In this document: positions 3,769 through 9,075 of the stretch, one piece after another | How the letters are laid out: each line of letters starts with the position of its first letter | Position numbering within the stretch: the first letter of the stretch is position 1 | Translations under genes and position numbers: made by a program | The notes under the pieces: model-generated | Seen by the model: only the letters and a program-made list of their open reading frames with translations | Database searches by the model: none | What the model was told of the DNA's origin: nothing | Source of the DNA: an uncultured Woeseia sp. | GTDB lineage: Bacteria; Pseudomonadota; Gammaproteobacteria; Steroidobacterales; Woeseiaceae | Reading direction: 5' to 3' | DNA length: 64,000 nucleotides | Assembly: GCA_913031125.1 (NCBI GenBank) | Contig: CAJWFK010000002.1 | Location: 62,001-126,000, forward strand

Positions 3769-3877
3769 CACAGAAAACGCAGGCATTAACAATGGGCGGA
3801 AACCACCACAATCCCGAGCCCTGCTGAATTTCAGTTGATAGAATGCCCTATTGCCGACGAATTCTTATAGGAAAAAA

Positions 3878-5434
3878 ATGCCCCCCGAAACAGAGAAGCC
3901 TTACCGAGGCAACCCCAGTCGAATCACTAGACTACTCACCAATGTCGAGCACATAGGTAATAAATTACCAGACCCTACCCTTCTATTTGTTAGTTTGCTG
4001 TTCCTTGTATGGCTGCTTTCATGGCTCTTATCGTACGTCAATTTCAATGTTATCGATCCGCGCACCGGAGCACCTCTAGAAGTTATGAATCAGCTATCTG
4101 CCGCTGCTATAACCAAATTTATGACTTCTATGGTGAAGACCTTTACACACTTTCATCCACTCGGGGTCGTCCTTGTTGCGATGCTAGGAATCGGGGTAGC
4201 GGAACACACCGGATTCATCGGCGCAAGTCTGAGGAGAATGATGGCGGTTACAGCAAAAGGCCTCCTAACACCGATGTTGATTATGGTTGGAATTATCAGT
4301 CATTCAGCAGCAGACGCCGGATATGTTCTGGTTATCCCACTTGGCGGCGTTTTATTTTATGCCGCCGGTAGGCATCCTTTAGCTGGCATCGCAGCCGCTT
4401 TCGCAGGTGTCTCCGGTGGTTTTTCCGCAAATTTTGTGCCATCCGCTCTTGACCCCATGCTTCAGGGTATTTCGCAAGCCGGCGCTCAAATACTGGACCC
4501 CAACATAATATTAAACCCATTGAATAACTACTTTTTTACCGCTTCGTCTTCAATTCTAATTATCGGTTTGGGTTGGTATATCACAGATAAGGTAGTAGAA
4601 CCTCGCCTTCAGGCCCTTGCGCTTGATGGAGAGCTTGACGACCTCCCTACTATGGATCCGTTAACAACGAAGGAAAGAGCTGGCCTTAGAGCCGCGGTTA
4701 CAGCAATGACTATAAGCTTACTTGCTTTGATCATTACCAGTGTTCCGGAGGGCTCAGCTTGGCGTGACACGGTGGGAAGCCTTACGTCGGGGAGCGCACC
4801 CCTAATGCAGTCAATTGTGCCACTGATATTTCTTCTTTTCCTTATTCCTGGAATTGTCTACGGCTATTCAGCGGGTACTATATCAAGTGCAAAAGATATT
4901 ATTGAAGGCATGGTCAAAGCAATGGGAACCATGACTTATTACCTAGTAATAATGTTTTTTATTGCTCAATTTATTTACTCCTTCGGCGAATCAAATCTAG
5001 GGGTCCTATTAGCGGTACAAGGAGCTGCTGCACTAAAATCTTTGGCCATGCCGGCACCCCTCACGATTACTGGAATCATCTTGCTCACCGGCTTAGTTAA
5101 TTTATTTGTAGGATCTGCGTCAGCAAAATGGGCGTTACTTGCACCGATTTTCATACCTATGCTAATGACATTAGGAATCTCACCTGATCTTACCCAAGCA
5201 GCATATCGGGTAGGCGACTCAACAACCAATATAATTACACCGTTAATGCCTTATTTTCCATTAGTGGTTGTTTTCTGCCAACGATACGTCAAAACCAGCG
5301 GAATAGGGACCGTTACAGCGATGATGCTACCTTACTCAATAACGTTTTTAGTTTTCTGGACCCTGTATTTGCTGATTTATTACTTAATGGGAATTCCGCT
5401 GGGCCTACAGGCAAATTATGAATATATACCATGA
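3878..5434 (+). CDS. AbgT-family transporter
   Basis: A polytopic inner-membrane protein of about 518 residues, the usual AbgT length. It begins with the family's N-terminal helix region (NVEHIGNKLPDPTLLF) and contains the re-entrant hairpin motif region GDSTTNIITPLMPYFP near the C-terminus. AbgT proteins import p-aminobenzoyl-glutamate (E. coli AbgT) or export sulfonamides (MtrF, YdaH); the sequence alone does not separate these roles. ATG 3878 is chosen over an upstream in-frame TTG because AGGA lies six bases ahead of it. No abgAB hydrolase genes are nearby, so a folate-salvage role is unsupported. Confidence 0.9.
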   Translation: MPPETEKPYRGNPSRITRLLTNVEHIGNKLPDPTLLFVSLLFLVWLLSWLLSYVNFNVIDPRTGAPLEVMNQLSAAAITKFMTSMVKTFTHFHPLGVVLVAMLGIGVAEHTGFIGASLRRMMAVTAKGLLTPMLIMVGIISHSAADAGYVLVIPLGGVLFYAAGRHPLAGIAAAFAGVSGGFSANFVPSALDPMLQGISQAGAQILDPNIILNPLNNYFFTASSSILIIGLGWYITDKVVEPRLQALALDGELDDLPTMDPLTTKERAGLRAAVTAMTISLLALIITSVPEGSAWRDTVGSLTSGSAPLMQSIVPLIFLLFLIPGIVYGYSAGTISSAKDIIEGMVKAMGTMTYYLVIMFFIAQFIYSFGESNLGVLLAVQGAAALKSLAMPAPLTITGIILLTGLVNLFVGSASAKWALLAPIFIPMLMTLGISPDLTQAAYRVGDSTTNIITPLMPYFPLVVVFCQRYVKTSGIGTVTAMMLPYSITFLVFWTLYLLIYYLMGIPLGLQANYEYIP

Positions 5435-5482: not shown

Positions 5483-6454
5483 CTACTGTCCAACACAAGC
5501 CCCAGCATAGGCTAACAGCTGACCTGCGTTTTCAAGCTGGCAATCGTTTTCGTAGGTAATTCCGTCTAATCCACAAACAGGCTGATATATACGTGGGCAA
5601 TTCCTTCCCTGTTCTTCACAGAGGCCCGCATGCAGGATACGCACGCCAGTCCTTTCAGCTAAACAAGCATTACCAAAAGTTTGCTCGTTTTCGCCACATA
5701 CTGGAATGTACATCGACGGGCACGGACGAGTATTGCAGGCGCCTTCAGTAACTACCTCTATATCGGCTGCTTGTGCTTCACAAGCGTTGTCATAGGTTAC
5801 TCCATCCGATGCACACACAGGCATGTATATGCTTGGGCAATTACTAATATCGCATGCGCCAGCCATTTGAATTGGGATTCGCTCATCTTCAGCGGCACAT
5901 CGATTACGATACGTACGACCGTTAACACCACAAACGGGAAGATAATCTTCCGGGCAAGCGTTACCGCTACAAGAACCAATGGCTAAGACATCGACACCGG
6001 CCGCACTAGCAAAACAGAGATTACTGTAAGTATTGCCATCACTCCCACACACTGGCTCCTGATCATCCGGACACGAGCTTACATCAACATCGCAAGTTCC
6101 AACTGTGGCCTCCTCAAGCCCTGCTGCCGCTGCTAAACAAGCGTTCGGATATGTTATGCCGTCCGGCCCACAAACCGGTTCATATATATCCACACAACCA
6201 TTAGGTACCTCTTTTGTCTCAAGAAAAAACTCATCGTCCGGCCCACAATCAGACGGTTCAGCAATTTCTGCGCCCGCAGCCTTCAGCACGCACTCGTTGC
6301 TATAGATCCGTCCATCAACTCCACACACAGGATTATATTCTCCGCTGCAGTTAGCTTCCTCCATTGCATGCGCCACGAATGGATACCCCCAAATAAAAAA
6401 TACTATCGTCGCACAGATCTTTATTTGTCGGTCCAGGATGCAGTTCATCATCAT
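5483..6454 (-). CDS. Secreted protein with seven Kazal-type domains
   Basis: After a probable signal peptide (residues 1-30, ending VAHA) the 323-residue protein is almost entirely seven tandem Kazal-like units at about 36-70, 87-121, 128-162, 167-201, 206-240, 245-279 and 286-320. Every unit has exactly four cysteines with spacing C-x7-C-x10-C-x14-C and the core pattern PVC-x-(D/N/E)-(G/E)-x-(T/I)-(Y/F)-x-N. Classical Kazal inhibitors have six cysteines; the pair missing here corresponds to C1 and C5, which bond to each other. Kazal proteins inhibit serine proteases by presenting a substrate-like loop. Residues at the expected P1 position are Gly, Asp, Asp, Glu, Ser, Ser and Arg, so several specificities are possible. 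The gene starts 25 bases after the ctpA stop on the same strand, suggesting co-transcription with that protease. Inhibitory activity is inferred. Confidence 0.88.
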   Translation of the reverse strand: MMMNCILDRQIKICATIVFFIWGYPFVAHAMEEANCSGEYNPVCGVDGRIYSNECVLKAAGAEIAEPSDCGPDDEFFLETKEVPNGCVDIYEPVCGPDGITYPNACLAAAAGLEEATVGTCDVDVSSCPDDQEPVCGSDGNTYSNLCFASAAGVDVLAIGSCSGNACPEDYLPVCGVNGRTYRNRCAAEDERIPIQMAGACDISNCPSIYMPVCASDGVTYDNACEAQAADIEVVTEGACNTRPCPSMYIPVCGENEQTFGNACLAERTGVRILHAGLCEEQGRNCPRIYQPVCGLDGITYENDCQLENAGQLLAYAGACVGQ

Positions 6455-6479
6455 TTAATTAAAACAAGATTGATTCACT

Positions 6480-7721
6480 TTACTCTGTTACTAGCGTGTG
6501 CATGATAGGACGTTTTTTTATAACCTCTACGGCTTCGCCGAGTTGAGAATCGTTTTTTAAATCGACATGCCCAACCATGCTTGCCCTATAAGAATTCGAC
6601 ACCATTGGTACGAAAACATCTGGGCTAATGCCTGCTTCGTCTATCGAATCGCCGGATGGTGTGAAATAGCGGGCTGTCGTCAACTTGACCGCGCGACCCC
6701 GCGATAGCGGCAATACAGTTTGCACTAGCCCCTTACCAAAAGTTTGTGTTCCCACAATTGTCGCACGACTATAATCTTGCAGTGATCCGGCAACTATTTC
6801 CGAGGCTGACGCCGAGCCGCCGTTGACTAAAACCACCATTGGAGCACCTCTGAGAATATCACCTGGTTCTGCCATTCTTTCGAAACGAGAGTCAGGTGTT
6901 CGGCCCACTGCAGAAACAATTACACCATGCTCAAGAAAAAGATCTGAAACATCAACCGCCGAATCTAGCGTGCCACCTGGATTATTCCGAAGGTCCAAAA
7001 TCAAGCCTGCAAGTTTACTGTTAGTTAACCCCCCTATTTCAATCCTTATTTGCCGAATTGCTGTTTTCGTTTCTTCTACTGTGGCCTCGTTGAACTGGCT
7101 TAATCGTAAATATCCAATAGACTCGTCAATCACCTCATGGCGTACACTTTTGACCGTAATGTTTTCCCGTGTTAGATGAAACGTCAAAGGATCATCATAA
7201 TCATCCCGGCGAACCCGGATTGTAATATTACTCCCCTTTAGCCCGCGGAATTTGCGGTACGATTTAGTGATCGTTTCACCAATAATAGGCTCTCCATCTA
7301 TCTCAATAATCTTATCACCTGCCTTAACTCCGGCACGTTCGGCTGGTGTGCCGTCAATAGGCGAAATGACTATTAGGCTATTGTTCTGCTCGCTAACCTC
7401 TAGACCCACTCCGGAATACTGGCCACGTGTACTCGCTCTTATCTTCCGATAATCAGCTGAATCGAGATAAGCTGAATGTGGATCGAGACCCCCAACCATA
7501 CCGCGGATTGCTTGGTCCAGAAGCTGAGCATCGCTAATATGTGCGACATAGTCATCTTTAACCAGCGCCATCACTTCGGCTAATAATCGGGATTGATCCC
7601 CGGTTAGGCTTGCTGGGGTACGAGTGTTTTTTTCCGACAAAATTGCACCGCCCAAAGAAAGGCTCACCCCCAGGATTGTGCCAATCGCCAAGACTAAGAT
7701 AGCCCGAATTTTTACAGACAT
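6480..7721 (-). CDS. ctpA: Carboxy-terminal processing protease, S41 family
   Basis: CtpA-type proteases are periplasmic Ser/Lys endopeptidases that trim or degrade envelope proteins, often peptidoglycan hydrolases. The 413-residue protein has an N-terminal signal/anchor (about 4-28), a PDZ domain (about 95-180, GVGLEVSEQNNSLIVISPI) and an S41 catalytic domain. The catalytic Ser is about residue 305 in GGSASASE and the general-base Lys about 330 in TFGKG, the normal 25-residue spacing. The gene lies 77 bases downstream of envC on the same strand, a common gammaproteobacterial pair, and is followed after 25 bases by the Kazal-repeat gene. Confidence 0.94.
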   Translation of the reverse strand: MSVKIRAILVLAIGTILGVSLSLGGAILSEKNTRTPASLTGDQSRLLAEVMALVKDDYVAHISDAQLLDQAIRGMVGGLDPHSAYLDSADYRKIRASTRGQYSGVGLEVSEQNNSLIVISPIDGTPAERAGVKAGDKIIEIDGEPIIGETITKSYRKFRGLKGSNITIRVRRDDYDDPLTFHLTRENITVKSVRHEVIDESIGYLRLSQFNEATVEETKTAIRQIRIEIGGLTNSKLAGLILDLRNNPGGTLDSAVDVSDLFLEHGVIVSAVGRTPDSRFERMAEPGDILRGAPMVVLVNGGSASASEIVAGSLQDYSRATIVGTQTFGKGLVQTVLPLSRGRAVKLTTARYFTPSGDSIDEAGISPDVFVPMVSNSYRASMVGHVDLKNDSQLGEAVEVIKKRPIMHTLVTE

Positions 7722-7798: not shown

Positions 7799-8962
7799 CT
7801 ACTCAGCCAGCAGCGGCCCCCCAAACCACCGTCTTGGGCTAAGCGGCTTTGTGTGATGCCTGATTTCAAAGTACAGACCTGTTTCTTGTTGGCCGCCAGT
7901 ATCGCCCACAGTCCCAATGACTTCACCGGTATCCACCCAATCACCAACAACTTTTATGGTCGTTTCGTTGTAACCATAGAGAGTCATGTAGCCTTCCCCA
8001 TGATCTATTATGATCAAAAGCCCCATTCCAACCAACCAATCAGCAAAAACAACGAGGCCTTGATGAGCGGCCCTTATCACCCGACCTCTTGAGGCTGAGA
8101 CGACTATCCCATTCCATTTAACATTTTTGCCAGCACGCGGTTGACCAAAATCATATTTCAATCGGCCACTGACCGGCCAAACCAAATGCCCACGCAAGTC
8201 ACTAAAGGCCGTATCCGTTCCGATTCCATAGTTGGAAGTGACAGTCGTTAATTCTTTAATAATCTCGACGATTTTCTTCTCTTGTTCGTTCAGCTTTCTA
8301 ATCTCAGATCCAGCCTCGGTAATATCTTGTTCAAGGGACACAAGCAGCCGCTCCCTGCTTTTTTGAGCAAACCCGAGCTTAGTTAAATGGTCCTTTTGAG
8401 ATTCCGTGAGGGCTGCTAGTCTAGACTCCACAATTGACTCAGCGCTTTTCAATTCAACCAGTTCCGCTATGTTTTGATTAACAACTTCGATTGAGCGGGT
8501 CCGAACCTCACTTATATAACGATAGTAGGTCAGTAAACGTCCAAGAGTCGCCGGGTCTTGTTCTGTTAGAAGCAGTTTTATTCGTTCTTGCGTTCCACCG
8601 GTATATAGCGACACCAAGTGACCCTCAAGCTCTTCTATACCTGCCTGAAGAATCTTCTCCTGTGCCACCAACCTTTGATTAATCTGTTCCTTGTTTTTCC
8701 TGTGTTGAGATCGCTGAGTCTCAAGATCCGCAATCAGCAAGCGCTGCTGTACGATCACCTCCTCAGCTTCTTCCAAATCGCCGACCAATTGATCGCGTTC
8801 CCTTGCTCTCTTGGCACGATTTCGTGTGAGTCGCGCAATCTGCTCTCTGATTTCCGCCAGATCCCGATTTCTCTCCTCGTTGACATCATCTTCCTGCGCA
8901 CCAGATAGATAGCCGACCCCAGAGATTGTTATGAAAAACAGAAGCCAAATCCTTACCATCAT
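7799..8962 (-). CDS. envC: Murein hydrolase activator EnvC
   Basis: EnvC is a periplasmic protein that switches on amidases AmiA/AmiB at the division septum. The product has a signal peptide, two long coiled-coil regions (about residues 25-110 and 165-250 from this start) and a C-terminal LytM/M23 domain (HLVWPVSGRLKYDFGQPRAG onward). The domain is degenerate: the first zinc-ligand position reads NGIVV rather than HxGID and the last reads YFEIR rather than HxHFE. That matches non-enzymatic activators rather than M23 peptidases. ATG 8962 is used because it gives a clean signal peptide; an in-frame GTG at 9010 would add 16 residues. ctpA follows in the same direction. Confidence 0.9.
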   Translation of the reverse strand: MMVRIWLLFFITISGVGYLSGAQEDDVNEERNRDLAEIREQIARLTRNRAKRARERDQLVGDLEEAEEVIVQQRLLIADLETQRSQHRKNKEQINQRLVAQEKILQAGIEELEGHLVSLYTGGTQERIKLLLTEQDPATLGRLLTYYRYISEVRTRSIEVVNQNIAELVELKSAESIVESRLAALTESQKDHLTKLGFAQKSRERLLVSLEQDITEAGSEIRKLNEQEKKIVEIIKELTTVTSNYGIGTDTAFSDLRGHLVWPVSGRLKYDFGQPRAGKNVKWNGIVVSASRGRVIRAAHQGLVVFADWLVGMGLLIIIDHGEGYMTLYGYNETTIKVVGDWVDTGEVIGTVGDTGGQQETGLYFEIRHHTKPLSPRRWFGGPLLAE

Positions 8963-9075
8963 AATTAAAAGTCTACGTATCTTGCAGCAATACACCAGTA
9001 TTTGCGGCACACTGCTATAATTGTTGGTCTACCTTCGTGCTCAAGCATCTCAGTATCAATTAATAAGCCAAAAAT

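Follow-up and report, generated by a model that had tools for sequence, protein, structure and literature searches.

We describe here a gene for a protein of repeated Kazal domains that stands behind envC and ctpA on the minus strand of the window, by which we mean the whole 64,000-nucleotide stretch of an uncultured Woeseia sp. that was analysed (Table 1). The initial annotation had placed a seven-Kazal gene 25 bases past the ctpA stop, with envC upstream; its coordinates are exact and Pfam agrees with it. The Kazal protein matches Kazal_1 (E 1.2e-55) and Kazal_2 (E 6.7e-48) over seven stretches each and, with a Kazal_1 score of 185.7 bits against a curated cut-off of 21, belongs to the Kazal_1/Kazal_2 family, while the ctpA product matches Peptidase_S41 (E 3.6e-52) together with PDZ, and the envC product matches Peptidase_M23 (E 2.3e-23). 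Ser305 and Lys330, which we take to be the catalytic Ser/Lys residues, lie within GGSASASE and GKG motifs of the ctpA product, which by its S41 and PDZ matches and these motifs is a CtpA. The initial annotation had also taken ctpA and the Kazal gene to be apparently co-transcribed, and neither of the signals that would set them apart, a promoter-like or a terminator-like site, was found in the 25-bp gap by a simple scan. Two minus-strand terminator-like sites were found in such a scan, one within the Kazal gene (5951-5937) and one past its stop (5443-5429), against a mean of 2.9 in shuffled sequence, and they are thus no commoner than chance. The gap, the shared strand and the family-wide conservation described below suggest that the two genes are co-transcribed.

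Table 1. Coordinates of the genes, the intergenic gap and the Kazal domains in the window
Feature	Position	Strand	Description
Kazal gene	5483..6454	-	323 aa; intact ORF; Pfam Kazal
ctpA	6480..7721	-	413 aa; S41 carboxyl-terminal processing protease with PDZ
envC	7799..9010	-	403 aa; M23/LytM amidase-activator homologue, fast-changing in the window lineage
ctpA-Kazal gap	6455..6479	-	25 bp, ctpA stop to Kazal ATG; occupied in relatives by yibQ, a methyltransferase gene or both
Kazal domain 1	6245..6349	-	residues 36-70; P1 = Gly
Kazal domain 2	6092..6196	-	residues 87-121; P1 = Asp
Kazal domain 3	5969..6073	-	residues 128-162; P1 = Asp
Kazal domain 4	5852..5956	-	residues 167-201; P1 = Glu
Kazal domain 5	5735..5839	-	residues 206-240; P1 = Ser
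Kazal domain 6	5618..5722	-	residues 245-279; P1 = Ser
Kazal domain 7	5495..5599	-	residues 286-320; P1 = Arg

It seems that the Kazal protein is exported. Its N-terminus is hydrophobic and signal-like, with a peak at residues 11-21, and inspection shows a cleavage-like AHA-M site close to residue 30 and no lipobox; these features suggest a secreted product. The disulfides of its domains are predicted ones. The mature protein is strongly acidic (net -34). The seven domains of the window protein share the spacing C-x7-C-x10-C-x14-C over residues 36-320, and this build is common to its relatives. Among 33 full-length proteins (the window's own included; L031, L043, L064 and L065, being cut or fragments, were left out beforehand), 12 have six domains, 13 have seven and 8 have eight, 227 domains in total, of which 222 place their cysteines at 0/8/19/34 and the other 5 are one residue shorter. 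The count of four cysteines per domain follows in part from the four-cysteine search pattern, and the independent test is whether cysteines are left over: none lies outside the domains past the start of the first domain in any of the 33. The classical Kazal arrangement has six cysteines (pairs 1-5/2-4/3-6), and because these domains have only four, with none left over for the pair 1-5, only the non-classical branch of the family fits. Moreover, the Asn that corresponds to the loop-bracing one of CrSPI-1 is present in 222/227 domains (4 have Ser and 1 is unread), a Tyr or Phe stands two residues ahead of it in all 227, and the PVC motif is found in 224. The domain 1 row of L027 in alignment A3, in which GTG was rendered as M, was omitted from alignment A4.

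Domain 7 modelled alone (residues 284-323, from a 20-row domain alignment) reached a pLDDT of 92.8, and its best Foldseek match was 4hgu (GmSPI-2; TM 0.88, E 1.4e-3, probability 1.00), followed by the leech tryptase inhibitor; for this 40-residue model there were zero matches at E <= 0.001, and all top rows were by title Kazal or follistatin-type chains. VIA-align gave a Z of 7.8 to both 4hgu and the leech tryptase inhibitor (LDTI) 1an1, values below 8 being middling according to the tool, and its rows comprised, by title, Kazal inhibitors, follistatin-like chains and other Kazal-bearing chains, with Fstl1 at Z 6.6. The full-length model was poor (pLDDT 59.3, pTM 0.21, three sequences) and was excluded from fold matching. 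A sequence profile of 27 relatives matched agrin, ovomucoid, RECK, CrSPI-1 and GmSPI-2, with agrin as the best solved-structure match. By cysteine spacing (222/227 domains) and by the modelled fold of domain 7, for which 4hgu comes first, the domains are of the GmSPI-2 kind, that is, predicted minimal four-cysteine, two-disulfide, non-classical Kazal domains with a putative inhibitory activity against serine proteases. GmSPI-2 (Galleria mellonella silk protease inhibitor 2; PDB 4hgu, 2m5x) is reported to inhibit subtilisin and proteinase K and to hold two disulfides, its cysteines being Cys5, 13, 24 and 39 (PMC4169406); it shares the cysteine spacing and fold, and 35 residues align by sequence, but it is a single 36-residue domain from insect silk whereas the Woeseiaceae protein is a bacterial one of six to eight tandem domains. 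Another two-disulfide Kazal protein, lacking Cys 3 and 6, has been reported (PMC1236909). Like CrSPI-1 and other invertebrate multi-headed non-classical Kazal proteins, the Woeseiaceae array combines tandem heads with differing P1 residues; domain 1 of CrSPI-1, as reported, has two disulfides and a P2 Pro, binds subtilisin and has its loop braced by Asn18 (PMC3082530). However, CrSPI-1 has two domains, the second with three disulfides, and belongs to an animal immune setting.

The Kazal gene is a family trait. It was found in 34/37 Woeseiaceae genomes and in 0/23 from other families of the order (60 related genomes, the window's own included), in 99/107 Woeseiaceae genomes of a larger set, and in 43/45 of those with a completeness of 90% or more and a contamination of 5% or less. 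Regarding the three genomes of the first set that lack it, the contig of G006 stops just past the methyltransferase gene, G035 is 65% complete and G027 is 99% complete. The latter genome has no match for ctpA (E <= 1e-30), yibQ or the Kazal gene, and its envC matches are weak only. In a sample of 369 genomes of the class, Kazal_1 exceeded its cut-off in 16, with seven matches in Woeseiaceae G000, six in Woeseiaceae G021 and one in each of the other 14, whose Kazal frames span 37-195 aa apart from one of 574 aa. These single-domain proteins of other Gammaproteobacteria share Kazal_1 with the Woeseiaceae array but differ from it in setting as well as in number, since within their loci (2.3-3.1 kb each) no match to ctpA, envC or yibQ was obtained at 1e-3, two control loci being positive. 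The Woeseiaceae Kazal query itself stayed above 1e-3 in all 14 loci, which indicates that the Kazal domains there are distant. A mobile origin was considered and dropped, as a viral-contig scan with alignment A1 (27 of the 33 full-length proteins) returned 13 pattern matches and no relative. A Kazal-type gene of the sponge-associated archaeon 'Ca. N. detritiferus' has been read as a defence trait (PMC6697440). Among the papers listed by Kazal searches of the open-licence PMC literature, none describes such a Kazal protein in its title or the start of its abstract, nor did we find in that literature a paper that brings Woeseiaceae and Kazal together.

Neighbourhoods were compared in the 34 Kazal-bearing genomes and in 19 more stretches, of which 18 belong to other families of the order. 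The linkage suspected in the initial annotation holds in relatives: ctpA lies upstream of the Kazal gene on the same strand in 33/34 genomes (the window's own included), the 34th case being G012, whose contig begins inside the methyltransferase gene, and an outcome of no linkage was not met with. Direct contact of the two genes, in contrast, is peculiar to the window, where 25 bp separate the ctpA stop from the Kazal start as against 516-2462 bp in the other 32 genomes (distances that take the first possible codon as the ORF start). The interval holds yibQ in 27/33 genomes and a methyltransferase gene in 19/33, with at least one of the two in all 32 genomes other than that of the window; their products were identified as a Polysacc_deac_2 deacetylase YibQ/SddA (E 1e-69 in L030) and a class I methyltransferase. 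In the window genome no match was obtained for yibQ (E <= 1e-5) or for the methyltransferase (E <= 1e-20), so that yibQ is absent from its envC-ctpA order and, since the other 32 hold intervening genes, the direct contact is by parsimony a deletion state of the window lineage. Among the 18 stretches of other families, the gene after ctpA is yibQ in 13 and a Kazal gene in none, two stretches ending inside yibQ, and the whole genomes of those families gave no match for the Kazal gene. The five Kazal-bearing genomes of genus g5 in the first set (L044, L054, L057, L059, L061; 1.3-2.0 Mb) are without yibQ and keep the order ctpA-methyltransferase-Kazal; envC is not next to ctpA in the four stretches of this genus that can be judged, in which there is no room for a gene between rhodanese and ctpA.

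This order recalls a described one. In P. aeruginosa, envC, ctpA and PA5135 (yibQ/sddA) are reported to form an operon with an extra promoter within envC (PMC12569750), and in E. coli sddA is reported to be co-expressed with envC (PMC11870482). Many of the relatives studied here have the same first three genes in the same order as P. aeruginosa, whose operon, as the excerpted text of its report presents it, consists of three genes and thus has no methyltransferase or Kazal tail; the window itself is without yibQ. The unit is therefore the known envC-ctpA-yibQ operon plus a (methyltransferase)-Kazal tail. The initial annotation knew of no described envC-ctpA-Kazal unit; envC-ctpA-yibQ is a described operon (PMC12569750). 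All parts are of known kinds, and what is new is the Kazal tail, whether or not the methyltransferase precedes it.

The P1 residues follow a positional pattern. From domain 1 to domain 7 the P1 residues of the window protein are G, D, D, E, S, S and R. In the first domain P1 is Met in 22/33 proteins, namely 20/21 of those with seven or eight domains (12 others with seven and 8 with eight) and 2/12 of those with six; the window, with Gly, is the sole seven- or eight-domain protein without it. The fifth domain from the end has Asp or Glu at P1 in 29/33 proteins, and the last domain a basic residue in 21/33. In the three positions between these two P1 is of mixed kind and comes second in variability among 35 columns, 5/33 domains of the third-from-last position, 34 residues long, being left out of this count, while it ranks 10th, 14th and 8th in variability in the first, fifth-from-end and last domains. 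This looks, from the sequences, like a multi-headed inhibitor of mixed specificity, and the pattern names no target. P1 Asp, Gly and Ser fit few known serine proteases. A Glu at P1 reportedly favours subtilisin (PMC3082530). The initial annotation had confined Kazal domains to chymotrypsin-like targets, which is too narrow, as they are reported to inhibit subtilisins (S8) too (PMC3082530, PMC4169406). Matches to S8 occur in 31/37 Woeseiaceae genomes and to Pfam Trypsin in 37/37. No S8 match and just two S1-type (Pfam Trypsin) matches, with open frames of 466 and 935 aa, were found in the window genome, which hence has no obvious target of its own. The largest number of S8 matches among the 37, 11, belongs to G027, which lacks the Kazal gene; this weakens the idea that the inhibitor is needed against the subtilases of the cell itself, with foreign proteases or a periplasmic partner left as candidates. 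A link between loss of S8 and loss of the first-domain P1 Met was not supported when genomes were compared one by one: the S8-less G000, G002, G010, G025, G031 and G033 have first-domain P1 G, M (cut gene), M, K, D and D, and S8-rich genomes also lack the Met (G018 with 9 S8 matches; G021, G032 and G034 with 5 each).

The Kazal gene is under purifying selection like ctpA, and is maintained, not decaying. Over nine pairs dN/dS was 0.05-0.25 for the Kazal gene and 0.06-0.21 for ctpA in the same pairs; dS exceeded 2, and so was near saturation, in four of the Kazal pairs and two of the ctpA pairs. Measured against congeners picked for usable frames (six others for Kazal and CtpA, five for EnvC), the window departs from congener-invariant positions at 32/179 in the Kazal protein and 35/214 in CtpA; this similarity rules out a decay specific to the Kazal gene in the window lineage and points to an overall divergence of the species. 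The exception is EnvC, which departs at 97/246 positions, in a lineage without yibQ/sddA.

We put forward, as a reading with an even chance of being right, that the protein is an exported multi-headed inhibitor which guards the envelope against S1/S8 proteases in the manner of ecotin. The product would be a standard-mechanism (canonical) serine-protease inhibitor made of two-disulfide Kazal modules. Its gene would come last in a wall-remodelling operon, after envC, ctpA, usually yibQ/sddA and often the methyltransferase, a place from which steady expression of housekeeping kind would be expected. Whether periplasmic or on the cell surface, each module would present its reactive loop to proteases of S1 (trypsin/chymotrypsin/elastase-like) or S8 (subtilisin-like) type, be they those of neighbours or the secreted enzymes of Woeseiaceae themselves, and envelope proteins would be shielded, as is thought for ecotin in E. 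coli. Ecotin is reported as a periplasmic inhibitor thought to target foreign serine proteases and not those of E. coli itself (PMC9904509); it is a dimer from a different protein family, and the likeness is one of role by analogy. Among the readings considered, this one is best supported by anatomy. The analysis shows the intact gene, the domain type, the modelled one-domain fold, the conserved loop brace, the conserved linkage and the purifying selection, whereas export, disulfides, co-transcription, inhibition and targets are inferred.

It is possible, though on balance unlikely, that the array serves CtpA or EnvC as an accessory of the wall module, be it as a CtpA substrate, adaptor or brake or as a scaffold of wall enzymes, and is not an S1/S8 inhibitor. 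E. coli SddA (YibQ) has been reported as a substrate of Prc (PMC11870482). The presence of ctpA upstream in 33/34 Kazal-bearing genomes, the persistence of the ctpA-Kazal linkage where yibQ was lost (the window genome and five g5 genomes, in two genera), the lack of both ctpA and Kazal in G027, and the similar change of the Kazal protein and CtpA would all agree with such a partnership, but linkage can last through inertia, and a conserved Asn brace with variable P1 residues is what a reactive loop would have. S41 proteases draw C-termini into a tunnel with the Ser/Lys dyad, and we know of no Kazal inhibitor of S41 proteases; both points count against a partnership with CtpA.

Some proteins with Kazal folds are not known to be inhibitors, agrin and follistatin among the sequence matches being examples, and this speaks against a guarding inhibitor, as do the lack of an obvious own target in the window genome and the Asp, Gly and Ser residues at P1. 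We also weighed whether the domains have turned into non-inhibitory binding or structural modules (cf. agrin, follistatin), for instance in surface adhesion, which we regard as unlikely. The six to eight tandem copies, agrin as the best solved-structure match by sequence, the Asp, Gly or Ser at P1 of several loops and the acidity of the mature protein would suit it. However, the closest folds are those of the inhibitors GmSPI-2 and LDTI (though the Z of Fstl1 is also high), the loop-bracing Asn is almost invariant, and the class of P1 residue is conserved in the first, fifth-from-end and last domains.

A further proposal, speculative and rather improbable, is that the array was recruited into the wall operon as an envelope regulator of CtpA or of another periplasmic protease (e.g. 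of HtrA type), where it would set the turnover of wall hydrolases, the pair outlasting the loss of yibQ/sddA. That the two genes adjoin by neutral accident, the Kazal gene being unrelated, with a promoter of its own, and parked past the operon, is very improbable, because the gaps of about 40-120 bp that precede the Kazal ORF in some genomes and the often rearranged convergent side of the locus are offset by overlaps or gaps below 10 bp in other genomes, by linkage throughout the family and by a window gap without a promoter-like site.

Kazal inhibitors have been studied mostly in animals and oomycetes. In this family of marine-sediment bacteria a Kazal protein of six to eight heads is retained in almost all genomes, fixed behind a peptidoglycan operon. 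The locus offers a candidate bacterial protease inhibitor in a housekeeping position that lends itself to testing, together with a natural set of more than 200 four-cysteine Kazal domains whose P1 residues depend on position; it also raises the question of which protease a free-living bacterium must restrain.

The convergent neighbour of the locus (3851-5434 in the window, with the matching flank in L030-L065) alternates among the peptide-type transporters OPT, POT and AbgT, and in many genomes a HerA/FtsK-like ATPase of about 800 aa comes first at this flank. Near an OPT transporter gene, L064 has a second Kazal-like frame (2490-2933; G019:C2) of 147 aa that is 69% identical to query residues 274-315 and may be a remnant copy.
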